Source: a virus
IMG/VR virus record: IMGVR_UViG_3300046167_000032
Span: 16,375 to 80,374 of that record
Direction: 5' to 3' (one strand)
DNA length: 64,000 nt
Shown here: one piece after another, positions 156-61,800 of the stretch
How the letters are laid out: every line of letters starts with the position of its first letter
How positions within the stretch are numbered: position 1 is the first letter of the stretch
Notes under the pieces: generated by a model
The model's database searches: none
The model's input: only the letters and a program-made list of their open reading frames with translations
What the model was told of the DNA's origin: nothing
Made by a program: the position numbers and the translations under genes

Positions 156-166
156 AGGATGTTTCC

Positions 167-385
167 TTATTTGTGTTTTAATACTTCGTCACGTAATAAT
201 TTTATTCTACGTAATTGAAAGATCGCACCTTGTGCTCGGTATATGATCTTATCATTGTCAGCTTGTTCCATAGTTCTGTGCTGTTGAGCTATTAGAGAAT
301 CTATATAACTATTGAACTGTTCCCATTGCTGGTGGTTGCTGACCATTGCCTTGAGCTTGCTCAGGTGCTCCTTGTCCTTCTGCAT
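167..385 (-). CDS. Small coiled-coil-like protein overlapping portal gene
   Basis: 72 residues, strongly charged and helical in character (heptad-like L, I and R spacing through residues 5-70), with no cysteine and no membrane segment. Its start lies inside the 3' end of the portal gene, an overlap of 77 bases in another frame, which suggests translational coupling. The protein is unchanged in unit B although nearby bases differ, so the frame is under selection. Small proteins of this kind follow the portal gene in many marine podoviruses. I do not know a function; a head-completion or portal-associated role is only a guess from position. Confidence 0.75.
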   Translation of the reverse strand: MQKDKEHLSKLKAMVSNHQQWEQFNSYIDSLIAQQHRTMEQADNDKIIYRAQGAIFQLRRIKLLRDEVLKHK

Positions 386-2459: not shown

Positions 2460-2469
2460 TTATTTGTCC

Positions 2470-4050: not shown

Positions 4051-4333
4051 TATCTAACCGTTTCTTTAAACCTACATGAGAAATAGTTCTACCAGTATTT
4101 CTAGTCAACCAGTTAGCAACTTCTCGATATGAATACTGTTTTAAGTATTTCTGTGCTTGCTCAAGCATATCAAGTTCTGCACTGATTGGCAAGAGTATTC
4201 CTTTATCTTTTGGGTCTAATTCATAACCAAAGGGAATTGTTCTTGCTACACGTGGGATTGCTACCCATCTACTATTTTCTTTAAGGTCTGTCGGTTGCGG
4301 TAATTTCCATTTACCTAATGGTTTAGTCATCAT
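3905..4333 (-). CDS. Helix-turn-helix protein upstream of terminase
   Basis: 142 residues. The middle (about 72-102: YSYREVANWLTRNTGRTISH then VGLKKRL) reads as a helix-turn-helix similar to those in resolvases and small terminase subunits. The C-terminal 45 residues are highly charged (K, R, E) and are encoded in the 146 bases shared with terL. It overlaps TerS by 11 bases and lies between terS and terL, so it probably binds DNA during packaging, perhaps as a second site-recognition subunit. That role is inferred. The protein is the same in unit B. Confidence 0.75.
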   Translation of the reverse strand: MMTKPLGKWKLPQPTDLKENSRWVAIPRVARTIPFGYELDPKDKGILLPISAELDMLEQAQKYLKQYSYREVANWLTRNTGRTISHVGLKKRLDNERQRKNKAGSLRRWADYAKKAIAKAEEIERTRLGAKEKEDTEETRAA

Positions 4334-4697
4334 CTTCCTGTGCTTTTTTAGCTGGCATCAACATAACACCACCCTTAGCTTCTACTTGCATCTTCTCAGT
4401 TTTAACTAAGCCAGTACGATCAAGTAGTTCTTTTGCTGCAGTCATCTTATCACGTATACCTAACTCAGTAGGATCGTATAGTGCACCTACCATAGCCATA
4501 GCCGCTTTAGGTACATTACGTGCTAAGTAGCTGTGAGTAACATCAATGATTTCTTCTTTGAGACTATTCGTTATTTCTGTGTTAGAAGTATTAGCTGAAT
4601 AACCTGCAATGATCTTAGCACTGGTAATATCTCCACCAGCTTCATCCATAAGGACTGCTAAGAACTTCTTCTGTCTATCTGTTAACTCACGTGCCAT
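4323..4697 (-). CDS. terS: Terminase small subunit
   Basis: 124 residues from MARELTDRQKKFL. I chose the ATG at 4697 because it has GGTGG about 8 bases upstream and removes 23 non-family residues of the longer open frame. The N-terminal ELTDRQKKFLAVLMDEAGG followed by AKIIAGYS is the helix-turn-helix typical of small terminase subunits. The middle (VPKAAMAMVGAL, TAAKELLDRTGL) matches the oligomerisation part of the same family. It recognises phage DNA for packaging. The gene starts 4 bases after the endolysin stop. Confidence 0.88.
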   Translation of the reverse strand: MARELTDRQKKFLAVLMDEAGGDITSAKIIAGYSANTSNTEITNSLKEEIIDVTHSYLARNVPKAAMAMVGALYDPTELGIRDKMTAAKELLDRTGLVKTEKMQVEAKGGVMLMPAKKAQEDDD

Positions 4698-4701
4698 ATT
4701 A

Positions 4702-5214
4702 TTATTCCACCATGTGTAATGCTTGTTCAAGCGTTTCTTTGTTACGCCTAGACCAACCACGTCCAAATGTTTTGTACGTATCTAATCCTTCATAGAACCC
4801 TTGTCTTACTGTATATACATAATCAATAATATACTTAGGGTCTTTCTCCATAACAAGTTGTAGTGTCTTAGGACCAATAGCACCATCTGCTGTAGCACCT
4901 ACTGCACGTTGTATAGCTTTAGCAGGTCTACCACTACCACTATTAACAGCCCAATCGAATGCACACCAATCTACCCCCGATGGAAGTTGATCACCTTTGA
5001 CTCTATCCCAATAGTTCTGTTTATATATTGGGGCTACATCTTCTGGTGTTAAATCACGCATCTCTTCTTCTGTAGACTCACGACCAATCCATTCGTCATA
5101 TACACGTTTAGTTACACCAAGATTAGTCATGCCACCGGGATCACTAGGATGATTAACGTAACCACCCTCGTGTTCCAGTAGCATTTCTAAACATTCATTA
5201 AAATTACTCTTCAT
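4702..5214 (-). CDS. Endolysin, GH108-type muramidase
   Basis: 170 residues. The N-terminus has HEGGYVNHPSDPGG then TNLGVT, the signature of glycosyl hydrolase family 108 lysozyme-like enzymes, with E16 as the probable catalytic acid. The second half (residues about 95-165: GATADGAIGPKTLQLV and after) matches the peptidoglycan-binding domain usually fused to this family. It cuts the glycan strand of the host wall at lysis. There is no signal peptide, so release would depend on the neighbouring holin. The protein appears identical in unit B. Confidence 0.92.
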   Translation of the reverse strand: MKSNFNECLEMLLEHEGGYVNHPSDPGGMTNLGVTKRVYDEWIGRESTEEEMRDLTPEDVAPIYKQNYWDRVKGDQLPSGVDWCAFDWAVNSGSGRPAKAIQRAVGATADGAIGPKTLQLVMEKDPKYIIDYVYTVRQGFYEGLDTYKTFGRGWSRRNKETLEQALHMVE

Positions 5215-5216
5215 TA

Positions 5217-5576
5217 TTATTTTTTCCCACCGAAGAACTTACTTACGCCACGCATACCAATGCTGGCACTAACGATTCCACCTAAAGAGTACTGATACCA
5301 ATCAGGCATAACCTCTAACGCAGTAAAACCTGCTTGTACTATTTCATTACCCCAATCACCACAGAAGGCTAAAATCAAAGGAATGGAAAACAATAAAGTA
5401 ATCCATTCATCTTTCCAGCTATTCTGTGTGGCTTTCATAGCCTCAATATCCCAGTCTATTTCACCTGTGGCTATCTTCATTTTTGTTTCAGCTTCTGCTT
5501 TCTTTACAGCAGTCTTGCCTTCTATAACTGTACCAGCAAGATTAGCTACTTGACCTATTAAGTTTAGTCCTAACAT
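5217..5576 (-). CDS. Probable holin (GTA-type three-TM holin family)
   Basis: 119 residues. Residues 1-45 are an amphipathic, charged segment with KTAVKKAEAETKMK; then NSWKDEWITLLFSIPLILAF starts a membrane segment (about 55-72) and YSLGGIVSASIGM a second hydrophobic stretch (about 96-109). The pattern SWKDEW plus a terminal FFG is typical of the small holin family found in gene-transfer agents and marine phages. It lies directly beside the endolysin. Unit B carries a diverged version with several amino-acid changes, while neighbouring proteins are unchanged. Assignment rests on context and memory of the family. Confidence 0.75.
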   Translation of the reverse strand: MLGLNLIGQVANLAGTVIEGKTAVKKAEAETKMKIATGEIDWDIEAMKATQNSWKDEWITLLFSIPLILAFCGDWGNEIVQAGFTALEVMPDWYQYSLGGIVSASIGMRGVSKFFGGKK

Positions 5577-5905
5577 TATCCGTTGTTACCTTTCACTTCT
5601 TTCTTGCTCATGTTAGTTACTCCGAAGAATACACCAACTATACCAGCTACAGATAAGAAATATATAGAGGCCATAGAGCCAATGATGTCAGCGGCTTGAT
5701 CAGCACCTACAATAGTACATAGCAATACTAGAAATGGATATGCAAGCATACCAACTAAGCAGAACCATGCCATACGTCTTTGTGCATCTCTCTGAGCATC
5801 TTCATCATCGAGTCTACGTCTACGATCTTCTAACGCTAAAGCATCCCACTCAGTCTTGTCTATAGAGCCATTGTTGTCTACATCTACTTCTTCAAAGCTA
5901 GTCAT
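5576..5905 (-). CDS. EF-hand membrane protein next to holin
   Basis: 109 residues. Residues 8-19 (DVDNNGSIDKTE) are a textbook EF-hand calcium loop: D8, D10, N12, G13, I15, D16 and E19 fill positions 1, 3, 5, 6, 8, 9 and 12. A charged linker rich in R, D and E follows (24-44), then two hydrophobic segments (about 46-66 and 75-98). The stop overlaps the holin start as TAATG, so the two are translationally coupled. I infer a membrane protein that senses or binds divalent cation and acts in lysis, for example as a holin partner or antiholin. Unit B differs only at residue 64 (T to S). Confidence 0.8.
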   Translation of the reverse strand: MTSFEEVDVDNNGSIDKTEWDALALEDRRRRLDDEDAQRDAQRRMAWFCLVGMLAYPFLVLLCTIVGADQAADIIGSMASIYFLSVAGIVGVFFGVTNMSKKEVKGNNG

Positions 5906-5907
5906 TC

Positions 5908-6165
5908 TTAGACTTTCCTATACCTTTTAGAAGTTTTAGCAGCGCCTTTAGGCTGTTTAGAAAACTGTTTACCAGCTTTAGTATCTTTACGCTTTTTTGC
6001 AGTAGTAGCTGCGTACTGCGAACTAGACATCGCTTTAAGAGCTGCAGCAGGTAAATAACGTTCCCCTGTAGCTTTACTACCTTGAGTCGAAGGTTTTCCA
6101 CTTTTAGTCCCCCACTTTTGACGAGTCCATTTATTAAGACTCTTTTGTGATTTGGAAAGGGCCAT
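5908..6165 (-). CDS. Small basic protein, DUF5872-like C-terminal half
   Basis: 85 residues, lysine-rich, with SLNKWTRQKWGTKSGKPS, ATGERYLPAAA and QYAATTAKKR. I recall this set of motifs from a marine phage and giant-virus family (DUF5872) of unknown function. In relatives I remember, this part is fused to a segment like that of the upstream 61-residue protein, here encoded separately with a one-base overlap. High charge suggests nucleic-acid binding. The sequence is the same in unit B. Confidence 0.75.
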   Translation of the reverse strand: MALSKSQKSLNKWTRQKWGTKSGKPSTQGSKATGERYLPAAALKAMSSSQYAATTAKKRKDTKAGKQFSKQPKGAAKTSKRYRKV

Positions 6166-6350
6166 TATTTATAGCCCCCACCTGCAGCTTTATAGGCTTT
6201 AGCGAGCATCTGTGCTTTACGTGCGGACCATTGATTGGCCTTGCCCCCCTTAGTTCCCCGTTTAATACGTTCAAACAAACGCTTCCGCATAGTAGGCTTA
6301 GTATAATTTCCTGCCTCATTTACCTTTGACTTTGCTTTCGATTTCGCCAC
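6165..6350 (-). CDS. Small basic protein, DUF5872-like N-terminal half
   Basis: 61 residues with KGGKANQWSARKAQMLAKAY and terminal AGGGYK. The motif of glycine-lysine turns followed by QWSARKAQ and GGGYK is common in marine phage small proteins. Its stop overlaps the start of the next gene by one base. Very basic, without hydrophobic segment. The function is unknown; a nucleic-acid contact is likely from composition only. Identical in unit B. Confidence 0.72.
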   Translation of the reverse strand: MAKSKAKSKVNEAGNYTKPTMRKRLFERIKRGTKGGKANQWSARKAQMLAKAYKAAGGGYK

Positions 6351-6459
6351 GAGTAATACCTATATCTCTCAAATCTTTATCAGACATATTATTTAGTAAC
6401 CATAAGTCGGCACTTGCTTGTCTGCTACGCTCTATGCGCTTGAATAATCTTTTAAACAT
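6316..6459 (-). CDS. DUF1127-like (YjiS) microprotein
   Basis: 47 residues: an N-terminal basic helix (MFKRLFKRIERSRQASADL) followed by NNMSDKDLRDIGITRGEI. The second part matches the DUF1127 signature of LSDRELADIGLTR type. DUF1127 proteins are common in alphaproteobacteria, where some bind RNA or affect phosphate and carbon metabolism. A phage copy may be host-derived and could redirect host RNA turnover; this is inference. It overlaps the next gene by 35 bases. In unit B (61605-61748) the codons differ in places and the protein is kept. Confidence 0.78.
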   Translation of the reverse strand: MFKRLFKRIERSRQASADLWLLNNMSDKDLRDIGITRGEIESKVKGK

Positions 6460-6462
6460 TTT

Positions 6463-6511
6463 AACTATCTCCGTTATGTTAGTAAGGCTTGTTTACCTTA
6501 CAGAGATAGTT
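6463..6511. promoter_or_regulatory. Nested hairpin between two late genes
   Basis: Outer arms AACTATCTC (6463-6471) and GAGATAGTT (6503-6511) are perfect complements. Inside them GTAAGG (6482-6487) pairs with CCTTAC (6496-6501) around an 8-base loop. It lies 4 bases upstream of the DUF1127-like gene and downstream of the 123-residue protein gene. No T-run follows in the transcribed direction, so RNA processing or translational control of the DUF1127 start is more likely than termination. Every base of it is conserved in unit B (61752-61800). Confidence 0.6.
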
Positions 6512-6557
6512 ATACCATACTTAGTTATATCATAATACAGATAATAATGCAACCCCG

Positions 6558-6929
6558 TTATGCATTCCTAGCAGGGTCATAGTATTCTTCTAGTGAAACC
6601 ATTACATCAATTGTGTTAGTAGTCTCACCATATGCTAATAGCTTATCACCAGCGTGCAGGTTAAAGTAACCACCATTAACTAAGTTATCTACAGAGTGAC
6701 CTGCCATACTTAATCCATTAGCTATATAATGATATGCATTATCTTCTTTGTGATAGAATTGTACGTATACCTTTTTAGTTGAGTTACTATTATTACTCAA
6801 GTGTAGATATCGTACTATAGCACTGAAGTTATTAGGGCATGTGTACAACACAGTAGCACTTGCATCTGCAGCAGTAGCGGATACAAGATAACCTTGTGTG
6901 TGAAACTTGGCGTTGTTTAAATTAGCCAT
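6558..6929 (-). CDS. Predicted beta-rich virion protein
   Basis: 123 residues with alternating hydrophobic pattern (VLYTCP, AIVRYLHLSN, KKVYVQFYHK, YFNLHAGDKLLAYGE, TIDVMVSLEEYYDP) typical of a beta-sandwich. Similar small proteins occur in marine podoviruses and cyanophages as head or tail decoration proteins; the assignment here is from that resemblance and from being in the late operon. The ATG overlaps the stop of the upstream Cys-rich microprotein (TAATG). Unit B differs at residue 98 (L to V). Confidence 0.68.
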   Translation of the reverse strand: MANLNNAKFHTQGYLVSATAADASATVLYTCPNNFSAIVRYLHLSNNSNSTKKVYVQFYHKEDNAYHYIANGLSMAGHSVDNLVNGGYFNLHAGDKLLAYGETTNTIDVMVSLEEYYDPARNA

Positions 6930-7021
6930 TACTTACCTGCGTCTTGACACTTACCTGTGGCAGAACAGTTAGCTGGTGTAGTACAGCCCTTACATGTTTT
7001 AAATTTACCTGTAGAATACAT
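6929..7021 (-). CDS. Cys-rich 30-residue microprotein
   Basis: Reads MYSTGKFKTCKGCTTPANCS and continues to a fourth cysteine (ATGKCQDAGK). The spacing CxxC, x5, C, x5, C is that of a small metal-binding knuckle and is familiar from tiny marine phage proteins. An AGGA ribosome site lies about 10 bases upstream of the ATG, and the stop overlaps the next start as TAATG. All four cysteines are kept in unit B (62218-62310). The function is unknown; zinc binding is inferred from the cysteines. Confidence 0.72.
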   Translation of the reverse strand: MYSTGKFKTCKGCTTPANCSATGKCQDAGK

Positions 7022-7035
7022 TTATATTTTTCCTA

Positions 7036-7329
7036 TTACCATTTAACTTTGTGTGACCAGTACTTAGCACTTAGCTTACTAGTCGGTTTACCTTGAGCAT
7101 TATGTCTAGCATAGTAACTCTTCTTACGAGCTTTATCTTTAGCTGATGTAGGATTCTTACCTGCACCACGTACACCCTGTTGTCCAAAGCGAATAAACTT
7201 ATACGTGTCCCCTTCTTTAGCCATCACACAGTGAGACTTCTTAGGGTGACTAGGTGTCCTCTTAGGCTTGTTTACACCCTTGAGTCCTTCCTCTTTCATT
7301 TTATTCTTGACTCGCTCAGGTATTGCCAT
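7036..7329 (-). CDS. Small basic late protein
   Basis: 97 residues, very basic, with KGVNKPKRTPSHPKKSH in the N-terminal half, YKFIRFGQQGVRG in the middle and SAKYWSHKVKW at the end. I recognise this pattern from a widespread marine phage protein family without known function. Basicity and late expression suggest nucleic-acid contact or packaging into the virion. It overlaps the upstream gene by 14 bases. The unit B protein is the same. Confidence 0.72.
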   Translation of the reverse strand: MAIPERVKNKMKEEGLKGVNKPKRTPSHPKKSHCVMAKEGDTYKFIRFGQQGVRGAGKNPTSAKDKARKKSYYARHNAQGKPTSKLSAKYWSHKVKW

Positions 7330-7528
7330 CTGTCCAACCTTCTTTTTTCATTGCCCACTCTACGTGTTCTAAAGTAAACTTACGACCATAGTAGGCTTCC
7401 ACTGCAGTTCTTACGTAGAATACATCACTGTGAGGGATATGTAAGTTCTTTAAATTACCATCAAGTAAATGATCGTAGAATTGTTTAAGAACATCGTCTG
7501 TATATAGTTTTACTGATTTCTTTGCCAT
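7316..7528 (-). CDS. Hypothetical protein, first gene of late operon
   Basis: 70 residues starting MAKKSVKLYTDDVLKQFYDH. I use the ATG at 7528 because the two extra residues upstream would need a TTG. It has no membrane segment and no recognised motif. It is the first gene leftwards from the control region, with a hairpin (7555-7570) and a candidate promoter (7736-7763) ahead of it. Conserved without amino-acid change in unit B. I do not recognise its function. Confidence 0.65.
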   Translation of the reverse strand: MAKKSVKLYTDDVLKQFYDHLLDGNLKNLHIPHSDVFYVRTAVEAYYGRKFTLEHVEWAMKKEGWTDGNT

Positions 7529-7554
7529 TGTCAATAGTTAATTGCACAAAGTCC

Positions 7555-7570
7555 TCGCCTAAGAAGGCGA
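7555..7570. promoter_or_regulatory. Small GC hairpin in late leader
   Basis: TCGCCT and AGGCGA are perfect 6-bp arms around the 4-base loop AAGA. It lies about 27 bases upstream of the first late start codon, so it would be in the 5' leader of the late transcript. Unit B keeps it exactly (62845-62860) while bases just upstream have changed. Confidence 0.5.
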
Positions 7571-7695
7571 TTTCTATGTACGTACATACCTCATTGCTAT
7601 TGCTTATCACTGTACATGTATACTTATATGTTTATATAGTTTAAGTATTATATAATTATAAGTATATATCATAGTACATGTATACTGTACGTGTA

Positions 7696-7708
7696 TCACT
7701 TATAGTGA
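7696..7708. repeat. Inverted repeat TCACTTATAGTGA, copy 1
   Basis: Arms TCACT and AGTGA flank TAT. The same 13 bases occur again at 8071-8083, and both are kept in unit B. The two sites bracket the control region 375 bases apart, as paired operators or origin elements would. Function unknown. Confidence 0.55.
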
Positions 7709-7735
7709 CCCTACCCGGAATATACTATATACATA

Positions 7736-7763
7736 GTTTTACACACTCTGTACCCCATGTCAA
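7736..7763 (-). promoter_or_regulatory. Candidate sigma-70 late promoter, leftward
   Basis: On the minus strand TTGACA is followed after 16 bases by TAAAAC (4 of 6 to TATAAT). Unit B keeps both boxes and the 16-base spacing (63009-63036) although spacer bases differ. It would start transcription towards the late genes about 200 bases ahead of the first start codon. No phage RNA polymerase gene is seen, so host polymerase is expected to be used. Confidence 0.5.
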
Positions 7764-8070
7764 CCCCTAATCGTACATTGGTAACAAACTGTGATGATAT
7801 TGTAATATATTGTAACATATAGTGATAGTATTTTGTGATCACAAATATACCCTGCACGTATACATAACACCATATCTGTATAGTGGTTAACACTCTCATA
7901 TTTCTGATCTGTGTAATTGTACATATCATACTAACGTACACCCCCCGTATGCCCCCTGCCCACCCTAGCTTGAGGTCGTTTGCGTGCGCCCACAGGCACA
8001 TGTACACGCATGGTGAGAGCATAATGCATAGGCACATACACCACACACGAGGAATATTCCACAATAACAA

Positions 8071-8083
8071 TCACTTATAGTGA
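8071..8083. repeat. Inverted repeat TCACTTATAGTGA, copy 2
   Basis: Second copy of the 13-bp inverted repeat, at the right edge of the strongly conserved part of the control region. The unit B counterpart is at 63319-63331. Confidence 0.55.
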
Positions 8084-8312
8084 TATGACAACTGTTATAC
8101 AATCAGTTGCCTTCACATATGGTGCAAGCATAGGCATGCTACGAGCAAGTGACGTGTGTTGCGCAGTTGATGCACATATACACCCACCCATAGGCATGAC
8201 CTACACATCACGTGCATCACACGCTCGGCTGCCTACACGTATACGCATGCGCACTCGCACTGAGAGCTGATTCGTTTTGCCCTCCAAAAAGTGATTCGTT
8301 TTTACCCTAACA

Positions 8313-8328
8313 AGTCCCACATTGGACT
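8313..8328. repeat. Palindrome family member, degenerate copy
   Basis: AGTCCCACATTGGACT differs from the family consensus AGTCCAAYGTTGGACT at two positions (C for A at 6, A for G at 9). It lies 18 bases upstream of the early promoter module, so it could be an operator. Unit B has the same degenerate copy at 63527-63542. Confidence 0.6.
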
Positions 8329-8345
8329 TAATTTGCTCCATATAC

Positions 8346-8395
8346 TACTACGTAGTAAAATAGGTGTTGACACCATCGGATTTATCTGATCTAAC
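8346..8395 (+). promoter_or_regulatory. Early promoter/operator module, copy 1
   Basis: A perfect 12-bp palindrome TACTACGTAGTA (8346-8357) is followed by AAATAG and TTGACA (8367-8372). At 17 bases spacing TCTAAC (8390-8395) could serve as -10 (4 of 6). The word TTATCTGAT and then GCATCGAAAC follow. The whole arrangement recurs at 10336 and in unit B (63560). It lies about 50 bases upstream of the first early gene. A dimeric repressor or activator at the palindrome is inferred. Confidence 0.6.
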
Positions 8396-8444
8396 TGATT
8401 GCATCGAAACGGCGAACTTGCCAAACTCAAAAAGGAAAAATCTT

Positions 8445-9056
8445 ATGACAAATACAAACACAGCTAACACCGACACAAACACAGCAGTACTTGCTACACT
8501 TGAGCTACAAGGTGCTGACATAGCTCGACAATGGAAAGCTATCACCAAAGGTGACAAAGCACGCTTCACTCAGCATACACAAGCCAATGGCTTCGACATG
8601 CAGTTAGGCAAGCTTATGGTTGCACTTTCAGAAGAGTGTGAAGGTCGTATCAAGTCAACTAGACTTGCTGATTGTGGCATCAACATAGTTGATAAGAGAA
8701 GACGTAGCGAAGCTAAATGGTTCGTTGAAAACGAAGTTGAATGCCGTGAGTTTATTGCTAAAAGCAAGAAAGGCTTCACATCACTTACAGCATTGCAAAG
8801 TGCAATGTCAAAAGCCAACAAGCAAGCATCATCTACTGATGATAAAGCGTCAACAGGTAAATCTAGCAAAGCTAGTGCAACACCAACTGAGGCTACTAGC
8901 GAAGCTAAACCTGCAACTAAAGAGACAATCTTTAAAGAGTTGCTTGCCATATGTAAGGCTAGTGATGTGAACATCATGGACATTGCAGAGATGCTTATGC
9001 TTGAAGCAGAAATGCTTACACCAGAAGAATTAGCAGATGAAAAAAAGGTAGCATAA
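8445..9056 (+). CDS. First early gene, unknown function
   Basis: 203 residues from MTNTNTANTDTNTA. I chose the ATG at 8445 because AAAGGA lies 8 bases upstream and the longer frame would run through the promoter module. The N-terminus is Thr- and Asn-rich; the middle (about 25-110) is a folded, charged region with GKLMVALSEECEGRI and KAKW-like motifs; a low-complexity S, T, K and A segment (about 125-160) follows, then an acidic helical tail. No family is recognised. As the first gene transcribed on entry it is a candidate host-takeover protein. The unit B copy has a +1 frameshift after codon 20. Confidence 0.7.
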   Translation: MTNTNTANTDTNTAVLATLELQGADIARQWKAITKGDKARFTQHTQANGFDMQLGKLMVALSEECEGRIKSTRLADCGINIVDKRRRSEAKWFVENEVECREFIAKSKKGFTSLTALQSAMSKANKQASSTDDKASTGKSSKASATPTEATSEAKPATKETIFKELLAICKASDVNIMDIAEMLMLEAEMLTPEELADEKKVA

Positions 9057-9060
9057 TATA

Positions 9061-9123
9061 AGTTTACTTATAGGTTACATCTGGCTCTCTCTCCCTAGCT
9101 AGGTGTAACTTTATAAGTTAACT
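9061..9123. promoter_or_regulatory. Long imperfect hairpin after first early gene
   Basis: The arms AGTT, ACTTATA and GTTACA (9061-9079) pair in order with TGTAAC, TATAAGT and AACT (9104-9123), giving 17 pairs with single-base interruptions around a 24-base CT-rich loop. It starts 5 bases after the stop codon and ends exactly where the next palindrome begins. There is no T-run, so this is not a classical terminator. A structured RNA, an RNase-processing site or a cruciform are possible. Confidence 0.6.
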
Positions 9124-9139
9124 AGTCCAACGTTGGACT
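9124..9139. repeat. Palindrome AGTCCAACGTTGGACT
   Basis: Perfect 16-bp palindrome, followed after 6 bases by the ribosome site GAAAGGA of the next small gene. As RNA it can form a 6-bp stem with a 4-base loop. One of seven family members between 8313 and 12259. Confidence 0.75.
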
Positions 9140-9161
9140 TACATATGAAAGGAAATGTCAA

Positions 9162-9296
9162 ATGGCATACAGAACATCAAGGCAACGTAAGCGTCAAGAA
9201 CAGCTACGTGAAGCATTCAAGCACACAGTCATGGGTGCAATGATGGGTTTTATTTTGGGTAGTGCTTTATTTCTACCATTTTTATTGAAAGGTTAA
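9162..9296 (+). CDS. 44-residue single-TM protein
   Basis: Reads MAYRTSRQRKRQEQLREAFK then a hydrophobic segment (about residues 22-41, GAMMGFILGSALFLPFLL). The basic N-terminus should stay in the cytoplasm. The start is set by GAAAGGA 9-15 bases upstream, in the leader that follows the palindrome. An alternative ATG at 9145 overlaps that ribosome site and is unlikely. Function unknown; a membrane-acting early protein. Confidence 0.6.
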   Translation: MAYRTSRQRKRQEQLREAFKHTVMGAMMGFILGSALFLPFLLKG

Positions 9297-9300
9297 TGTT

Positions 9301-9495
9301 ATGTTAATTGAACGTAAATCAATTTATTCTGGCACTATAAGTGCAATGGATATTGATGTAACACCAACGCAGATTAATGCATGGTACTGGCAGGGTGAGC
9401 TTATCCAAAATGCTATGCCTAACATATCTGCACAAGAACGTGAGTTCATTGCTACAGGTATCACACCCACAGAGTGGGACGAAATGTTTAACTAG
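9301..9495 (+). CDS. Conserved small phage protein
   Basis: 64 residues containing ERKSIYSGTISAMDIDVT, WYWQGELIQNAMPNIS and EREFIATGITPTEWDEMF. I recognise this as a small protein common in unrelated phages and plasmids, of unknown function. The pattern GELIQxAMPxxS followed by REFIxTGxTPxEWD is its hallmark. It begins 4 bases after the preceding stop. Its TAG stop overlaps the next palindrome. Confidence 0.72.
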   Translation: MLIERKSIYSGTISAMDIDVTPTQINAWYWQGELIQNAMPNISAQEREFIATGITPTEWDEMFN

Positions 9496-9509
9496 TCCAA
9501 TGTTGGACT
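9494..9509. repeat. Palindrome AGTCCAATGTTGGACT
   Basis: Family member with T at the variable central position. The first base pair lies inside the stop codon of the upstream gene. It is followed by the leader word TTGAAAGGATAT and the next start. Confidence 0.75.
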
Positions 9510-9531
9510 TATATCTTGAAAGGATATTAAA

Positions 9532-9759
9532 ATGATTAAAGTAATCAATGCTGATAAGGCTGTAACAATTGCGTTTGAAAAAAGAACTAAGTATCTTAAA
9601 GACGTATTAGAACTTGCTATAAGTGAGGGCAGAAATGCTTTGAGTGTTTCATCACACAAAACTAATTCTGTAGATGTGGCACAATTGCGTGAGTATGGCT
9701 ACGATGTTTGGGTAAATCCAGACAATGGTGATGCAGTCATAAGTTGGGGTATTGTATAA
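9532..9759 (+). CDS. Hypothetical early protein
   Basis: 75 residues with a predicted alpha/beta character: KVINADKAVTIAFEKR, a helix KYLKDVLELAISEGRNAL, then strands around YGYDVWVNPDNGDAVISWG. Preceded by a palindrome and AAGGAT ribosome site. The stop overlaps the next start (TAATG). No family recognised. Confidence 0.62.
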   Translation: MIKVINADKAVTIAFEKRTKYLKDVLELAISEGRNALSVSSHKTNSVDVAQLREYGYDVWVNPDNGDAVISWGIV

Positions 9760-10091
9760 TGGGTAATCGAGCGACACTTGAAGTAATAAATCAAGACTAT
9801 TCTTGGCAAGAAACACCTTGCTACATATATGTACACTGGTCAGGTAGCCCTGAGACTGTGACTGAACTAGTAAAAGGTGCATCATCTAACATGCGTAAGT
9901 CTGATGTTAACTATGCTACTGCTAGACTAATAGCTCACATATGTAACTATGTGGAGGGTGGTTTGTCTGTAGGTGTACAAAAGAACAAAGAAGATTGGGA
10001 TAATGGACACTATGTCATAGATATGAGTAATGGTAATATCAAGAATGATGATACGCTTATAGCTGAAGGCATACAGTTTGGTAATTTTTAA
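9759..10091 (+). CDS. Hypothetical early protein with MGNRATLEV start
   Basis: 110 residues. The ATG at 9759 overlaps the upstream stop as TAATG, which fixes the start; the open frame extends 5 codons further but lacks a ribosome site. MGNRATLEV, CYIYVHWSGSPE, ATARLIAHICNYVEGGLSVGV resemble a phage family that I have seen with patterns MGNRAxVxF and YLHWxGxPE; its function is unknown. Probably soluble. Confidence 0.66.
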   Translation: MGNRATLEVINQDYSWQETPCYIYVHWSGSPETVTELVKGASSNMRKSDVNYATARLIAHICNYVEGGLSVGVQKNKEDWDNGHYVIDMSNGNIKNDDTLIAEGIQFGNF

Positions 10092-10094
10092 CTT

Positions 10095-10110
10095 AGTCCA
10101 ATGTTGGACT
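10095..10110. repeat. Palindrome AGTCCAATGTTGGACT
   Basis: Family member, 4 bases after the preceding stop. The leader TTAATATTATGAAAGGATTT and the next start follow. Confidence 0.75.
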
Positions 10111-10131
10111 TAATATTATGAAAGGATTTAT

Positions 10132-10329
10132 ATGAAATTTAAATTGCATACAAACACACATTACACCATGCCAAAGCCTAGTCGTGCAGATCGTATAGCT
10201 CGGCTGCGAGCACGTATTGAGTTACAGCGTAAGTGTGCTTCACCTGTTGTCGATGTAGTGTATGACAACAAAAATAATGTAGTAGAGTTTGTGAGTGACT
10301 CAGGTTGGAAAACCTACAGCAAATCATAA
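10132..10329 (+). CDS. Hypothetical early protein
   Basis: 65 residues. The N-terminal half is basic and helical (KPSRADRIARLRARIELQRK), the second half has two short strands (VVDVVYDNKNNVVEFVSDSG). Start fixed by GAAAGGA 5-11 bases upstream. Possibly nucleic-acid binding by charge; no family recognised. Confidence 0.6.
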   Translation: MKFKLHTNTHYTMPKPSRADRIARLRARIELQRKCASPVVDVVYDNKNNVVEFVSDSGWKTYSKS

Positions 10330-10335
10330 TACTAC

Positions 10336-10385
10336 TACTACGTAGTAAAATAGTGCTTGACAACAGGTTGGTTATCTGATTTGTT
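10336..10385 (+). promoter_or_regulatory. Early promoter/operator module, copy 2
   Basis: Repeats the module at 8346: palindrome TACTACGTAGTA (10336-10347), AAATAG, TTGACA (10357-10362), TTATCTGAT and GCATCGGAAC, in the same order and spacing. The position matching the -10 box reads TTTGTT, which is poor, so the shared elements rather than the -10 define the module. A palindrome family member follows at 10402. Confidence 0.55.
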
Positions 10386-10401
10386 GTTAAGCATCGGAAC
10401 T

Positions 10402-10417
10402 AGTCCAACGTTGGACT
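10402..10417. repeat. Palindrome AGTCCAACGTTGGACT
   Basis: Perfect 16-bp palindrome directly downstream of the second promoter module, then AAAAAGGA and the next start. It would be transcribed into the 5' leader of that gene. Confidence 0.75.
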
Positions 10418-10440
10418 TCACATAAAAAGGATTACATACA

Positions 10441-10617
10441 ATGAAAAAGAATAACATGTTCAACACTCCTGATTCAGTTGATCAGATACCTGCATTGATA
10501 AAGAACGTAATAAAGTTTATTGAAGCACCTAAAGGTAAAGGTGATACAGTTGAAGCAATAGTTTCAATCATGATGATAAATAATTTTATTGCAGATAACA
10601 ATGGGGATACACAGTAA
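10441..10617 (+). CDS. 58-residue hypothetical protein
   Basis: Starts MKKNNMFNTPDSVDQIPALI and contains a helical middle (KNVIKFIEAP, GDTVEAIVSIMMINNF). AAAGGA lies 9 bases upstream of the ATG. The stop overlaps the next start (TAATG), so it is coupled to the HhH-like protein downstream. No family recognised. Confidence 0.6.
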   Translation: MKKNNMFNTPDSVDQIPALIKNVIKFIEAPKGKGDTVEAIVSIMMINNFIADNNGDTQ

Positions 10618-11237
10618 TGTATAGTCGTGATGTAAGAGAAATCAAATCGTTTGTCCGTTGGGGTGGTACAGATGCATTTGTAAACACTGGCCTGTTTGTA
10701 TTGCTAACGATACAAGCAGGTTTATCCACAGTAAAAGGTAGCATGGAAAAAGTAAGCATAGATGGTGTGAAAGCTAATTGCTTATGGGGCAAGAAAGGTG
10801 AAGGTTACAAGTACCTTATCAAGCATGGTGACTACTTACGTGGTGAGATGTACAAGATTGCAGATGCAAAAGGCTACAAAAGTGTTGAAGCTTGTGCTGA
10901 TGTTGTTGAGTTATTTATGCAAGTACCTAACTTGGGTATGGTCAAGGCATCTTTCCTTGCTCAATGCCTAGGTTTCAATGTAGCTTGTATTGATGGACAC
11001 AATGTCAAGCGACTAGGTATCAATCCCAACGCTGTAAAGACACCACCAAAGGCTATGAAGCCAGAGACTGCACGTCGAAAGGTTGAAGAGTACATAGTAC
11101 TTACTCAACGTGCTGGTTCAAAGTATTGGTGGAACACATGGTGCGAGTATGTTGCAGGTAACAAAGCTAATCGTAAGCTTACTACAGGCAATGTCGTATC
11201 TAAATTTCATGTAGAATGTATAACATACGGGAGGTAA
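10617..11237 (+). CDS. Protein with helix-hairpin-helix-like (HhH-GPD-type) core
   Basis: 206 residues. The segment at about 102-131 (VPNLGMVKASFLAQCLGFNV then ACIDGHNVKRLG) resembles the helix-hairpin-helix and catalytic aspartate arrangement of HhH-GPD DNA glycosylases: a Gly-rich turn, a helix, then xDxHNxxR. A similar phage family with CLDTHN-type motif is known to me only as hypothetical. The C-terminal YWWNTWCEYVAG helps pack the fold. It may act on DNA bases or bind DNA; activity is not shown by the sequence. Confidence 0.6.
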   Translation: MYSRDVREIKSFVRWGGTDAFVNTGLFVLLTIQAGLSTVKGSMEKVSIDGVKANCLWGKKGEGYKYLIKHGDYLRGEMYKIADAKGYKSVEACADVVELFMQVPNLGMVKASFLAQCLGFNVACIDGHNVKRLGINPNAVKTPPKAMKPETARRKVEEYIVLTQRAGSKYWWNTWCEYVAGNKANRKLTTGNVVSKFHVECITYGR

Positions 11238-11256
11238 CATATGAATGCAGTATACT

Positions 11257-11418
11257 ATGAAGAACTTTATTAAGTTCACTAAGTCCAATGTTGGACTAAC
11301 TACTAAGAAGAAGAAGCCTAAGCGTGATGATTGGAAGCGTGAGCGTTCAACAGCACGTAAGATTAAAACTAATATGCAAAGAGGCATAACAGATTACAAA
11401 CCAAAACGTATAGCATAA
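11257..11418 (+). CDS. Small basic protein with palindrome inside its frame
   Basis: 53 residues: MKNFIKFTKSNVGLTTKKKK, then PKRDDWKRERSTARKI and a basic tail. A palindrome family member is translated within it as KSNVGL. The only good ribosome site (GGGAGG) instead faces an ATG at 11241 that opens a 10-codon frame ending at 11273, one base out of phase. Either the short frame is a leader peptide or a single-base change has split the gene. Existence as a protein is uncertain. Confidence 0.45.
   Translation: MKNFIKFTKSNVGLTTKKKKPKRDDWKRERSTARKIKTNMQRGITDYKPKRIA
11282..11297. repeat. Palindrome AGTCCAATGTTGGACT (within a small frame)
   Basis: Only family member not in a clear intergenic position: it lies inside the 53-residue basic frame. 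If that frame is not real, the element is in the long leader of the next gene, as elsewhere. Confidence 0.72.
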
Positions 11419-11432
11419 GGAGCTAACATAAA

Positions 11433-11759
11433 ATGACTACTATTTCAAAACCACTAGTAAAGAACACTAACCCAGAACTATATGTGAAGCACACAGCACA
11501 CATGTCAAGAGCAGGTATTCATACCTACAACTATGCGTCTGTTGATGATTACATTCTACAGAACTGGAGAGTGTCTACTATAAAACAGATTGCATCTGAC
11601 TTAAACGAATACCCTAATCGTATTGTATATAGGGTACAAGTACTACAATCTGTAGGTTTAATAGGTAGCAAGTACACTACTAAGCGTGCTACATTGAAGA
11701 CACAACAAAAGATGCTTGTCACTTGGTTGGCAGATATCAAACAACAATTGGAGGCGTAA
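11433..11759 (+). CDS. Winged-helix-like DNA-binding protein (candidate regulator)
   Basis: 108 residues. The centre (about 44-78: WRVSTIKQIASDLNEYPNRI then VYRVQVLQSVGLIGSKY) reads as a helix-turn-helix with a following wing, of the kind that distinguishes cell-state or repressor genes. The C-terminal helix (KTQQKMLVTWLADIKQQLEA) could dimerise. AAGGAG lies 12 bases upstream. It is the clearest DNA-binding protein in the early region and so a candidate to act on the palindromes; that link is inference only. Confidence 0.6.
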   Translation: MTTISKPLVKNTNPELYVKHTAHMSRAGIHTYNYASVDDYILQNWRVSTIKQIASDLNEYPNRIVYRVQVLQSVGLIGSKYTTKRATLKTQQKMLVTWLADIKQQLEA

Positions 11760-11764
11760 TAACA

Positions 11765-12004
11765 ATGTCAAATAAAACACAAGCACAGTGGAAAGCTGAA
11801 CGTATGGCTAGGTATAAGGTAAATAAAAAGTTATTGGCTAGTATGTCTAAGGAACAGCGTGAAGCTATCGAAGAAGCTCAAGAGGTTTTGCGTGACACGT
11901 ATTCTATGGCTACAGAAGCGCATGATCTATACATGTCAGACATAGGTAAGATTGAGTCAGCTTGGTATTCACTGAGGTTTGCATTCAAAACTGAGGAAGA
12001 GTAA
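11765..12004 (+). CDS. Hypothetical helical protein
   Basis: 79 residues from MSNKTQAQWKAERMARYKVN. GGAGG lies 9 bases ahead of this ATG, so the 14 extra codons of the longer open frame are discarded. Largely helical and charged, with a run of E, A and Q (MSKEQREAIEEAQEVLRDTY). No family recognised. Confidence 0.6.
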   Translation: MSNKTQAQWKAERMARYKVNKKLLASMSKEQREAIEEAQEVLRDTYSMATEAHDLYMSDIGKIESAWYSLRFAFKTEEE

Positions 12005-12007
12005 CGT

Positions 12008-12244
12008 ATGCCTGTTATGGCATATGAAGTCACGTTAGCCATTGACAGTGAGAATACTATCGTTAAGTTAGATGATACGTATCCTTCTGTAAGTGACTGG
12101 CGTACAGCTTCGGAGTTTGCTATTCATATGATGATGCGTAGCAAACCTGATTCACGAGTTGAGTTTGTCGATTGTAGTGAGAGAGTACATGAGGTATACT
12201 CATCATGGGGATACATAAGTGAAACCCCACCATCAATTCAATAA
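12008..12244 (+). CDS. Hypothetical protein
   Basis: 78 residues with alternating strands and one helix (YEVTLAIDSENTIVKLDD, WRTASEFAIHMMMRSK, RVEFVDCSERVHEVYSSWGY). GAGGAAGAG precedes the ATG. Its TAA stop shares its last base with the next palindrome. No family recognised. Confidence 0.6.
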   Translation: MPVMAYEVTLAIDSENTIVKLDDTYPSVSDWRTASEFAIHMMMRSKPDSRVEFVDCSERVHEVYSSWGYISETPPSIQ

Positions 12245-12259
12245 GTCCAACGTTGGACT
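12244..12259. repeat. Palindrome AGTCCAACGTTGGACT
   Basis: Last family member in the window, starting on the final base of a stop codon and followed by AACCATGAAAGGAAATATAA and the next start. Confidence 0.75.
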
Positions 12260-12280
12260 AACCATGAAAGGAAATATAAA

Positions 12281-12589
12281 ATGCATTGGGATACATACTT
12301 AGTTGATTTAGATATACCAAAAGAATGGAAGTGTACAAGCCATCATCATGATGAACTACCAAGCTACCAAGTAAATGGTCTACACATATGGATGGGCAGC
12401 CATGATGCAAATGTGCGTGAGGCTGATGCAAAAAACATTTGGGGTACAGATTGGGGTATGTTTACACGTTTCATAGTTCAATTGGCAAGCACCTACAATG
12501 GTGAGTCAGATGATCATGCATGGCTATGTAGTACTGATAGCTTTGAAGAGCTACAACAATTTGTAAAGGAATATAACAATGAAGATTAG
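12281..12589 (+). CDS. Hypothetical protein upstream of methylase
   Basis: 102 residues rich in W, H and D (SHHHDELPSYQVNGLHIWMG, WGTDWGMFTRFIVQLAS, DHAWLCSTDSFEELQQFVKE). GAAAGGA precedes the ATG. It overlaps the methylase start by 11 bases, so translation is coupled. No family recognised. Confidence 0.6.
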   Translation: MHWDTYLVDLDIPKEWKCTSHHHDELPSYQVNGLHIWMGSHDANVREADAKNIWGTDWGMFTRFIVQLASTYNGESDDHAWLCSTDSFEELQQFVKEYNNED

Positions 12590-13684
12590 AACACAACTAT
12601 CCTTATGTGATGGCTTATCAGGTGGTCAGATAGCAGGTGATAAGATAGGCTTACGTGCTGATACTTATATAGCTAGTGAGATAGACCCACATGCTATTAA
12701 AATTACACAGAAAAATTATCCTGAACACTGTACAAGTAGGTGATATGACTGAGTGGAGATCATGGGATATTGATTGGTCTAAAGTTGATCTAGTTACAGC
12801 AGGTTTCCCGTGTCAGGCATGGTCAGTTGCAGGTCAACAGAAGGGTGATCGTGATCCACGAGGTCAATTGTTTTGGGTAGTACTAGACATCATGCAACAT
12901 GTGCTAGAGCACAACCCTAATGCTAAGTATCTAATGGAGAATGTTAGAATGTCGAATGCTTTTGAGGAGTACATCACGTATCACACTGAGCAAGCATTGC
13001 CTAATGTAAACAAGTACCTAATCAACAGTGCGCTAGTGTCTGCACAGAATAGGAAACGTTTCTATTGGACTAACATCGAAGGTATTCAACAGCCAGAAGA
13101 CAAAGGTATAGTATTGAAAGATATACTCGAAGGATGGTTTGACTGACAGAACTAAGTCACATTGTCTTGATGCTAACTATTTCAAGGGTGGTAATCTCAA
13201 GTCATACTTCGAGAAGCATCGCAGACAGTTGGTGTTTAGTCCTAGTGGTATGTGCCACGTAGGTGACGCTGATTTGAATGGCAATCAGTCTATCAAGCGT
13301 GTGTATGCAGCCGAAGGTAAAGCACCTACCTTGACTACTATGGGTGGTGGACACAGAGAACCTAAAGTATTGGTGAAGGGTGGACGTATGGTTGGGCGTA
13401 GACTAGATGCTAATGGTACTCGTAAAGACTATGACACATCTATACCAATCAAACAGATGATTGAAGTTAGAGAAGATGATAAAACTAATTGTCTAACTAC
13501 AGTGACTAAGGACAGTATCTTGATTGAGGATATGTCTTGGCGTAAGCTAACACCATTAGAATGTGAACGCTTACAAACAATACCAGATGGGTACACTGAA
13601 GGTGTATCAAACACACAGCGTTACAAGATGCTCGGTAATGGGTGGACTGTAGACGTGATAGCACACATATTGAAAGGGTTATGA
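12579..13684 (+). pseudogene. C5-cytosine DNA methyltransferase, split by two frameshifts
   Basis: All parts of a cytosine-5 methylase are present in three successive frames. Frame 1 (ATG 12579) has the SAM-binding motif LCDGLSGGQIAGDKIG and YIASEIDPHAIKITQKNYPE. After residue 50 the frame shifts by one extra base near 12729. Frame 2 has VGDMTEW, the catalytic AGFPCQAWSVAGQ, MENVR, and QNRKRFYWTNI. A second extra base near 13144 leads to frame 3, with SHCLDANYFKGGN, RRQLVF, LTPLECERLQTIPDG and YKMLGNGWTVDVIAHILKGL. Intact, it would modify phage DNA against host restriction. Whether the breaks are real mutations, sequencing errors or recoding cannot be told from one copy. Confidence 0.88.
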
Positions 13685-14298: not shown

Positions 14299-15126
14299 AT
14301 GACTTATATACCTGATCACCTAGACTTCAAAGTAGCATTTGAACCAACAAAAATGCACGATAAGAAGTACGTTATCAATGAAGATACAGGTGAATACCTT
14401 GGCATTGTGGGTAATACATTCCAGTGTGCAGCACATGGTGATTTCTTTCGTGGTGTAATGGACACTGCTACACAAGAGCTAGGTGCTGATGCATTAGATG
14501 GTGCAGTCAATCAGTTTAGAACAGCACGTAATGGTGCATGGGCTATGCTTGACGTGACACTACCTAACATCAAGACTAAAATTACAACTGACAAAGCTGA
14601 GACTGAGATTGGTAACAGGATCATCAGCTTACATGGTATTGATGGATCATGTAGTAACCAAGTATTCTTTGGTGCTATAGATTTCTTCTGTACTAACGGC
14701 ATGATTACAGGTGATCACGACAAGGTGCGTAAGAAGAACACATCTAACTTTACTATGGATAGTTTTATCTACGAACTAAATCGTGCTCGTACTGACTTCT
14801 TTGATCAAGCTAAGAGGATGCAAGTGTGGGCAGAGACTAGCCTCAAGTTCATCAATGTAAAAGATTTGATTGAGAGTATCATTAGTTCTAAGACTAAGGC
14901 TGAGAAGATGTTCAGCTTGTATAATGCTGAGGCTAGTGTGCGTGGACACAACAAGTTTGCACTGTATTCTGCCTTCACTAACTACGCTAGTTATGCTGAT
15001 GAACGTAATGGTTTCAACCTACGTAACACGGGACATGACACACAAGCTATCAACATGTGGTCACGTGAGCAAGAGGTATCCAAGTGGGTAAGCAGTAATC
15101 AGTTTCGTGTATTGGATGTTGCTTAA
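14299..15126 (+). CDS. DUF932 family protein
   Basis: 275 residues. I use the ATG at 14299 because GGAG lies 7 bases upstream; an ATG four codons earlier overlaps it. The order of motifs (KMHDKKYVINEDTGEYLGIVG, ARNGAWAMLDVTLP, FFGAIDFFCTNGMITGDHD, ADERNGFNLRNTGHDTQA) matches the DUF932 phage and plasmid family. Members occur beside replication genes and near plasmid stability functions; the biochemical role is not known. Its stop overlaps the integrase start as TAATG. Confidence 0.82.
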   Translation: MTYIPDHLDFKVAFEPTKMHDKKYVINEDTGEYLGIVGNTFQCAAHGDFFRGVMDTATQELGADALDGAVNQFRTARNGAWAMLDVTLPNIKTKITTDKAETEIGNRIISLHGIDGSCSNQVFFGAIDFFCTNGMITGDHDKVRKKNTSNFTMDSFIYELNRARTDFFDQAKRMQVWAETSLKFINVKDLIESIISSKTKAEKMFSLYNAEASVRGHNKFALYSAFTNYASYADERNGFNLRNTGHDTQAINMWSREQEVSKWVSSNQFRVLDVA

Positions 15127-16248
15127 TGCCTAAGCTACCTAGATATGTACAAGAGAGAGTATCACCTCACGGGGTGATCTCTTACAGATTTAATCCGCCG
15201 CAGAACTTAGTGGATGAGGGTGTGGTATCACGTCAAGAGTATGGCACTGATCTCAAGGAAGTGCGTAGTATTGTGAAGGAGTTGAACGCAGACATTGACC
15301 ATTGGCGTGAACAAAAAGCGACAGTGGTACAGATAAAGCCATCAAGTAAGGTGACAGATTTGATTAACTACTACTATCAATCTAATGATTTCAATATGTT
15401 ACGAGACACAACTAAGGTGGATTACAGATACTTCCTAACCATACTCCATCAGACTATGGGTGGTAAGAAGTACGACAGTGTAACAACTAAGGTTGCCAAG
15501 CAAGCATATGAAGGAGTGGGTTAAGCGTGGTATTAGTTTCGCTAATCATGCTGCAACATGTGCAAGTAGGGTATACAACTACGCTATTGACATGGAACAT
15601 GCCACACAAAATCCTTGGACTAGCATCAAGCGTAAGGCATTGCCACAGCGTAAGGTTGTATGGTCACATGGTGATGTTGTCAGGTTTCTTGATTATTCGT
15701 ACAGCGATTTTGACTACAGGAATGTGGGATTGATTGTGCACATGGCATATGAATGGTGTCAACGTCTAGGTGACATGCGTACACTGAAGTGGGAGAACAT
15801 TGACTTGCGTACACAGCGACTAGAGTTAGAGCAGAGTAAGCGTAGGGCAGATGTATCACTACCAATATCAGATGATCTATGCCACATGCTGAATGAACAG
15901 CGTAATGACTTTGGCTTTCAAGATTATGTAGCACCACACCCACGACCAATGGGCGGTAAGTACCAACCATATGCAATGGAACGTTTGTCTAAGGTAGGTA
16001 GACGTGTCATGAGATTAGCTAAGTTACCAGAAGAGTTACGTCTAATGGACTTACGTAGAACAGGTGTGACACAGATGGTTGATGCAGGTGTACCAATTGG
16101 ACAAGTGATGTCTGTTACTGGACACAATCATGTGTCTTCTGTGCAACCATATATGAAACATACATATGATTCTGCAAATAATGCCTTGACACAGAGAAAT
16201 GTAAGTGTACAATCGAGTGCAGCGAGTAACATAGAAAGTGATACATAA
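15126..16248 (+). pseudogene. int: Tyrosine integrase, split by one frameshift
   Basis: The first part (15126-15524) is the arm- and core-binding N-terminal region ending KVAKQAYEG; the second (frame from 15493) continues EWVKRGISFANHAATCASRV and holds the catalytic domain. One extra G near 15513 explains the shift. The catalytic set is visible: R in CQRLGDMRTLKW, K near QSKRRADVSLP, the second-box basic pair in LMDLRRTGV, H in VTGHNHV, and tyrosine in YMKHTY. It would catalyse site-specific integration. The start and stop overlap neighbours as TAATG, so the gene is built into the operon. No attP is identified in the window. Confidence 0.88.
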
Positions 16249-55245: not shown

Positions 55246-55256
55246 GGGATGTTTCC

Positions 55257-57549: not shown

Positions 57550-57559
57550 TTATTTGTCC

Positions 57560-59787: not shown

Positions 59788-59791
59788 ATTA

Positions 59792-60504: not shown

Positions 60505-60508
60505 AATC

Positions 60509-61194: not shown

Positions 61195-61196
61195 TC

Positions 61197-61748: not shown

Positions 61749-61751
61749 TTT

Positions 61752-61800
61752 AACTATCTCCGTTATGTTAGTAAGGCTTGTTTACCTTACAGAGATAGTT
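61752..61800. promoter_or_regulatory. Nested hairpin, unit B copy
   Basis: All bases of both stems and the loop equal those at 6463-6511, while genes on both sides have silent changes. Confidence 0.6.

Follow-up and report, generated by a model that had tools for sequence, protein, structure and literature searches.

The early region of a virus raises a simple question: which factor reads the short palindromes that recur among its small genes, and what would such reading achieve? The virus is IMG/VR record IMGVR_UViG_3300046167_000032, of which positions 16,375 to 80,374, a stretch of 64,000 nt hereafter called the window, were analysed. The palindromes are 16 bp long and are found around gp01, the first early gene, whose product has 203 amino acids (aa). 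We found that such sites accompany gp01 in a large set of related phages and that a few gp01 residues covary with letters of the sites. From these patterns we consider it fairly probable that gp01 binds the sites as DNA and silences the early operon in a stoperator-like manner.

Palindromic sites and the gene that accompanies them

Six exact copies of AGTCCAAYGTTGGACT on the plus strand and a degenerate copy, AGTCCCACATTGGACT at 8313, stand exactly where the initial annotation had placed them.

8313–8328, no strand assigned: degenerate copy AGTCCCACATTGGACT upstream of gp01, followed about 40 bp later by a TTGACA box
8445–9056, plus strand: gp01, the first early gene (203 aa), a proposed repressor that would bind the palindromes
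9124–9139, plus strand: site AGTCCAACGTTGGACT, separating gp01 from the following small gene
9494–9509, plus strand: site AGTCCAATGTTGGACT, overlapping the TAG stop of the open reading frame (ORF) 9301–9495
10095–10110, plus strand: site AGTCCAATGTTGGACT, directly past the stop at 10091
10402–10417, plus strand: site AGTCCAACGTTGGACT, about 40 bp past a second TTGACA box
11257–11418, plus strand: small basic-protein gene (MKNFIKFTKSNVGL...), ORF start at 11245 or 11257, with an in-frame site
11282–11297, plus strand: site AGTCCAATGTTGGACT, within the small basic-protein gene, reading SNVGL
12244–12259, plus strand: site AGTCCAACGTTGGACT, touching the TAA stop of ORF 12008–12244
63527–63542, no strand assigned: the 8313 site again, in the redundant terminal stretch of the record

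The palindromes are real and exceed chance: with up to three mismatches allowed, the window holds 16 strand-matches (8 places), whereas 100 dinucleotide shuffles gave 0.62 on average and never more than 3. The rest of the 80,374-base record adds no copy at two mismatches or fewer, and the replication block and late genes are free of copies in this record, as had been noted. The placement between genes that had also been claimed holds for five of the six exact copies, each with a sequence resembling a ribosome-binding site (RBS) and a start shortly downstream, but not for the copy at 11282, which lies inside a gene; in the isolates CRP-345 and CRP-1 the equivalent small basic-protein gene also keeps an in-frame site. 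At the place corresponding to 8313 the site is intact in the IMG/VR loci L116 and L117. Positions 1–8785 of the window align to 55091–64000 at 95.7–98.7% identity, a self-repeat with a spacing of about 55.1 kb. Hence, the record exceeds one genome length and the copy at 63527 duplicates that at 8313; assembly from two strains is probable.

No equivalent had been known to the initial annotation in HMO-2011-type phages. This proved wrong, since CRP-1, CRP-345 and HMO-2011 each have one; such sites occur in many related marine phage contigs and in these three cultured phages. The core GTCCAAYGTTGGAC is found in CRP-345 and CRP-1 within the gp01 linker, in gaps separating small genes, inside the small basic-protein gene and close to the end of the record, and the site pattern matches six times in each whole record. 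HMO-2011 has a word of its own: AGTCCGACAGCGGACT occurs five times (at 53878, 54807, 60, 1261 and 1926, the copy at 60 inverted), is slightly asymmetric, and is the only 16-mer of that genome with more than four copies. The first gene of its rightward early block, gp74 (205 aa), is a distant gp01 homolog (hidden Markov model (HMM) E 1.4e–28, tblastn E 8e–5). Two IMG/VR relatives of gp74, L321 and L322, have five such sites each, all in one orientation and some of those in L321 slightly changed; scans that used HMO-2011 gp74 or L091 alone returned only self-matches. A first rightward gene homologous to gp01/gp74, together with a repeated dyad in the early operon, is thus common to the window, CRP-1, CRP-345, HMO-2011 and the IMG/VR loci. 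Copies of TGTCCAAGGTTGGACG in the integrase gene (7079 in CRP-345, 6868 in CRP-1, and some far sites) were taken as coding coincidence and excluded from the counts of site type, and the copies at 14469 in CRP-345 and 13621 in CRP-1 were likewise judged coincidental.

A motif scan of IMG/VR returned 92 loci, 58 of them in one group, and each of the 58 encodes one or more homologs of window proteins. The others (14 loci of 60–64% GC, 9 of 37% GC and 11 singletons) carry one exact copy each and were dropped as chance matches. Contexts were similar in 11 of the 12 GC-rich loci shown (L034 deviates) and in those shown for the 37% GC group, and both groups were set aside because this is the picture of a chance match inherited within conserved sequence. 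In the GC-rich contigs, which belong to unrelated phages (L015, L024, L029, L062 and others), the single copy mostly occupies one conserved place. A table of window-protein matches placed gp01 in CRP-345, CRP-1, L018, L007, L055, L050 and L091; it listed no gp01 match in L073, L066 and L077 (the last ends just past gp01), nor in seven isolates scored as lacking the motif.

Searching by protein gave a more direct view. An alignment of gp01 (A2, built from motif-bearing loci, the retrieval itself being by protein) found 197 relatives in IMG/VR, of which the best 80 were kept. At least one site is present in 80/80 of these loci and at least two in 77/80; the three single-site loci (L111, L171, L180) extend less than 900 bases past the gp01 start. 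The 80 loci hold 377 sites versus 1 in one base-shuffled copy, a control that keeps base content only and is read with a pattern fitted after a first look at the same loci. We then reduced 206 loci (some contigs had been fetched twice) to 82 distinct genomes that share no 100-mer near gp01, a thinning that removed L186 and the exceptional L279. Between –800 and +5000 of gp01, 79 of the 82 genomes have at least three sites (median 5), and 320 of the 332 downstream sites match both half-sites of their own genome exactly. Conversely, gp01 was unmatched in CRP-207, CRP-2, CRP-603, HTVC033P, CRP-3 and CRP-212, by HMM within their first 50 kb and by tblastn across whole records, and the first 12 kb of these six isolates contain no repeated perfect palindrome, a comparison that a very diverged pair could escape. 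The site pattern has one coding match each in the whole records of CRP-2 and CRP-603; CRP-235 and CRP-738, also listed by polymerase, lay outside this comparison. Overall, the sequence comparisons strongly support the pairing of gp01 with the sites.

Correspondence between gp01 residues and site letters

Half-sites are GTCCAA, GTCCGA, CCCCAA or CCCCGA and are mostly uniform within a genome. Their type follows a few gp01 residues: T115 goes with -AA, S115 combined with K119 with -GA, K or R at position 84 with GT, and D or S there with CC. Residue 115 is T in 54/54 A-type rows and S in 12/12 G-type rows, the sole alignment column that separates the two types perfectly (one A and one G row are gapped, and 14 mixed and 3 CCCC rows are excluded; the gapped G-type row, L147, reads S at this position in another analysis). 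Residue 119 is K in 12/12 G-type rows and variable in A-type rows; residue 122 is A in 9/12 G-type rows, whereas A-type rows usually have K, R or S there. Residue 84 is K or R in 81/81 GT genomes and D or S in 3/3 CC genomes.

A rule was fixed before new loci were scored: T115 predicts GTCCAA, S115 with K or R at 119 predicts GTCCGA, and S or D at 84 predicts CCCC. It was applied to 81 loci that share no 200-mer near gp01 with the earlier ones, and as first written it was correct in 78 of the 80 that could be scored (L228, a T115 locus, has no repeated site in the stretch examined). GTCCAA was found in 67/67 T115 loci with repeated sites and -GA in 11/11 loci with S115 and K119; both failures have S115 with R119. 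The rule would thus require K119, a narrowing made after the fact.

A gp01 tree built without the helix columns shows 13 changes of site type. Among 8 independent supported pairs, residue 115 agrees with the change in 7–8 and opposes it in 0 (P-value 0.008–0.016, with L147 scored as not S). L186, the window, CRP-1 and CRP-345 had been added to the tree set by hand; two S115/R119/K122 rows stayed unclassified (mixed sites) and one row had too few sites. A natural switch is seen in L182 and L186, whose gp01 proteins are identical at 178/187 positions. L182 (T115/R119/K122) has five CCCCAA sites and L186 (D84, S115/K119/A122) five CCCCGA sites; with L183 standing for L182, the changes S113N, T115S, R119K, K122A and Q123K fall in the helix. 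This is the pattern expected of a protein and binding sites that change together. We infer that residue 84 reads letters 2–3 of the 16-mer and residues 115, 119 and 122 letter 6.

These results bear on two other proposals of the initial annotation. A winged-helix candidate (11433–11759) had been suggested as the binder. The suggestion lacks support: homologs of the candidate were seen in only 4 of 10 site-bearing sequences (CRP-345, CRP-1, L055 and L077; several of these are partial contigs), whereas it is residues of gp01 that track the site letters. The copies had also been seen as recombination seams; alternatively, they might be a small palindromic element able to mobilise gene cassettes. 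Copies do stand ahead of several unrelated small genes, and a single reading frame is common to 151 of the 189 copies inside genes. A passive seam, however, predicts neither that the copies within a genome change together nor that they follow gp01, and we give this explanation almost no credence.

The gp01 protein gave no match in Pfam or PHROG at E 0.1 and no sequence match in the PDB. Along its length it comprises residue 84, residues 115/119/122, a disordered linker (about 131–155) and C-terminal helices. The AlphaFold model of full gp01 has a mean predicted local distance difference test score (pLDDT) of 75.5, with residues 131–155 below 50; the DNA-binding part modelled alone (32 rows) is all helical, with mean pLDDT 92.9 and a predicted template modelling score of 0.78. 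In that model residues 115, 119 and 122 come near the start of the last helix and, judged by their spacing, would lie on one face. In BFVD, gp01 matches S4S2E1 (E 3.6e–7, 205 aa) and A0A6J5NRU3; by its length S4S2E1 is perhaps HMO-2011 gp74.

Site context and the proposed mode of action

How would gp01 act? In the mechanism that we favour, it would read a 14-bp core, GTCCRA-NN-TYGGAC, as DNA, with one half-site per subunit of a presumed dimer. About five sites are spread over the operon: one precedes the apparent early promoter, another falls within gp01 or directly behind it, and the remainder are squeezed between small genes or stand at tolerated spots within genes. Bound gp01 would stop the polymerase at successive sites, at initiation or during elongation, and so silence the operon, its own gene included; the sites would be distributed operators working like the stoperators of mycobacteriophage L5. 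A dimeric repressor site was among the options of the initial annotation and is the one that the evidence favours, with direct contact, dimer and repression all presumed from sequence patterns.

The promoters in question were placed by eye.

8367–8402, plus strand: putative early promoter of gp01, TTGACA at 8367, with TACTACGTAGTA ahead at 8346–8357
10357–10392, plus strand: second putative promoter, before the 10402 site, TTGACA at 10357, with TACTACGTAGTA at 10336–10347

A sigma-70 consensus scan of 7500–13000 found no excess (15 versus 18.7 in shuffles) and did not list the 8367 promoter among its matches. Upstream sites precede the apparent promoter in 11 loci and the window (again by eye).

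A further, speculative step is that gp01 confers immunity as the repressor of these phages, most of which bear an integrase. Such a role is plausible because an integrase accompanies gp01 in 43 of the 45 loci that have at least 7.5 kb downstream. Likewise, the switches of specificity could, as a speculation, reflect selection to escape a resident repressor. A wider proposal, which is possible and in our view rather doubtful, combines several such steps: gp01 would be a DNA-binding fold absent from solved structures and the immunity repressor of a large share of HMO-2011-type ocean phages, forming an independent stoperator system with dyad sites, and its immunity groups, set by residues 84 and 115/119/122, could be read from metagenomes.

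A number of observations weigh against these interpretations. As regards the code, S115 with R119 failed in both new loci (0/2; L279 has GTCCAA and L233 is mixed), and ten earlier S115/R119 loci are mixed too (L130, L132, L134, L135, L137–L141, L152). The S115/K119 loci L125 and L151 have GTCCAA upstream, the T115 loci L142, L203, L272 and L273 carry one GTCCGA each, and the CCCC type is represented by 3 rows, probably from 2 lineages. As regards repression, no site overlaps the apparent core promoter in the 11 inspected loci and the window. As regards the protein, no convincing PDB relative was found for either AlphaFold model: the best Foldseek match has E 1.1 for the full model and 4.2 for the DNA-binding part, and the best VIA Z-scores are 3.6 and 3.3, from which we claim no relative and which do not thereby amount to a new fold. 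As regards immunity, a pattern-filtered search found no gp01 relatives in genome contigs of 84,980 species. Integration is reported for CRP-3, in which we found no gp01, while no integration site was identified for CRP-1 (PMC6918029); the tyrosine integrase of the window (15126–16248) is broken, with matches in two frames versus one frame in the 43 other loci.

The remaining contrary points concern strand, and they favour a different target. Either gp01 or another factor might recognise the site in early mRNA, folded as a hairpin (5-bp stem, ANNU loop), and control translation or decay of the small genes. The centres of downstream sites are strand-biased in the 82 genomes (TG 204 versus CA 32), as RNA pairing also predicts, and mismatches of letters 6 and 11 are G–T in 6 cases and A–C in 0 (17 and 0 downstream when all loci are pooled). 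Upstream centres were unbalanced as well in the first 80 loci (TG 27, CA 7). In the 82 distinct genomes they are balanced (TG 28, CA 27 among 72 upstream sites, 61 exact and 11 with one mismatch). Transcription-linked C-to-T bias was tried as a cause of the TG excess; fourfold sites of gp01 (T 1877, A 1086, C 788, G 311) do not clearly support it. A hairpin would also suit the 143 between-gene sites, in which an RBS-like sequence and a start follow 18–24 nt past the 14-mer in 79% of cases versus 8% at random places. However, a stop triplet in any frame lies at most 7 nt upstream of 127 of these sites (a count without control, partly made of site letters), and therefore the start spacing may merely reflect short gaps. 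Nor does the orientation bias decide for RNA, because L5 stoperators show one too and lose repression on reversal (PMC9283540).

Several other features fit DNA better. By a mechanical ORF rule 189 of the 332 downstream sites lie inside genes, 151 of them encoding S-N/D-V-G, and the upstream sites stand before the apparent promoter where inspected. The inverted copy of AGTCCGACAGCGGACT in HMO-2011 is the same as DNA and would have a different loop as RNA, which is our chief reason for favouring DNA as the target. All 332 downstream centres are a pyrimidine–purine step, GG or CC, which suits DNA bending. The RNA hairpin, another option of the initial annotation, is thus disfavoured, and we regard it as unlikely.

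Binding to DNA could also activate or antiterminate early transcription, as gp01 is the first early gene and the sites follow in the same operon. Sites within genes and at gene ends resemble blocks more, and negative control would explain why gp01 has a site of its own (in the 82 genomes, 69 sites fall +200 to +480 from where the gp01 match begins). Neither point is decisive; still, we hold activation to be decidedly improbable, and silencing by gp01 remains our preferred explanation.

Neighbouring features and comparison with known systems

Some further features were seen near the sites. The second palindrome, TACTACGTAGTA, stands ahead of both TTGACA boxes and again at 63560, is present in L116 and L153, and might be a promoter-linked regulatory site. 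Shortly 5' of the gp01 start, the sister-clade loci L129, L156, L172 and L182 have a similar inverted repeat (around ATCTCAC...GTGAGAGAT; by eye); Rfam gave no matches in L129, L133, L156 and L182. A 10-codon ORF, MNAVYYEELY (11241–11273, by eye), follows GGGAGG and overlaps the start of the small basic-protein gene; it is possibly a leader peptide. A methylase-like gene of the window is split over two frames (12691–13146 and 13139–13684), and both pieces match CRP-603, in which a cytosine-5 methyltransferase is annotated.

HMO-2011-type phages are reported to dominate and to be widespread in the ocean (PMC9038755). The passages covered state nothing on control of their early genes or lysogeny. 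In the parts of PMC9038755 covered, 'palindrom' and 'promoter' occur 0 times and 'repeat' twice, once for a polymerase zinc motif; in those of PMC6918029 'repeat', 'promoter', 'palindrom' and 'repressor' occur 0 times. We found no description of these sites in the literature, as judged by titles and abstract starts, with supplements and most subscription papers outside the scope.

If the proposal is right, an orphan protein gains a testable function and the sites supply its targets, with natural switches of specificity as ready-made controls. The two would form a previously unrecognised gene-silencing pair whose sequence code is already partly readable. Were gp01 indeed an immunity repressor, patterns of exclusion among uncultured phages could be predicted from their sequences.

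How does this pair compare with known ones? The CI protein of lambda reads dyad operators as a dimer, controls early genes and regulates its own gene, all of which we propose for gp01; unlike in lambda, helix-turn-helix (HTH) and S24 peptidase domains were undetected in gp01 (Pfam, E 0.1), and the sites extend over about 4 kb. In ParB–parS systems several 16-bp palindromes are bound by one protein, again as proposed here. A partition or DNA-condensation system of this kind would account for dyad sites of that size in few copies and for a protein made of a DNA-binding part, a linker and C-terminal helices. Yet gp01 has no Pfam match at all, hence no detected ParB domain, and the sites are confined to the early operon; we consider such a system very improbable.

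Cluster K mycobacteriophages have SAS/ESAS sites, 13-bp asymmetric GGGATAGGAGCCC located 3–7 bp from starts (PMC3203893). In the parts of that article covered, these too are short sequences that recur close to the starts of non-structural genes; most share an orientation, and roughly half contain inverted repeats. They differ from ours in sequence; here, in 79% of between-gene sites, a start comes 18–24 nt past the 14-mer, more than half of the downstream sites fall within genes, and there is an indicated binder.

Cluster A mycobacteriophages (L5, TipsytheTRex) use 13-bp asymmetric stoperators, 20–30 genome-wide, and a monomeric repressor with HTH and stoperator domains (PMC9283540, PMC6550527). 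As described in the parts covered, many sites of one phage repressor lie outside promoters in short intergenic spaces, are oriented with transcription, differ in specificity between related phages, and include one near the repressor gene that is thought autoregulatory; the sites around gp01 resemble them in all these respects. Orientation is visible here only in the 2-bp centre, since the arms are symmetric, and one of the five HMO-2011 copies is inverted. In contrast to Cluster A, the sites are 14–16-bp dyads, mostly exact in both halves, number about five, are confined to the early operon and often lie inside genes, and gp01 has no Pfam, PHROG or PDB sequence match and no convincing fold match. 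As far as sequence and fold searches reach, gp01 appears unrelated to the proteins of these systems. Overall, we suggest that the system is of the distributed-operator repressor kind, that it lacks defining features of the known families tested, and that its architecture, with a site in or after gp01, a string of sites along the operon, one upstream, most away from any recognisable promoter, and polarity, comes closest to the L5 stoperator system.

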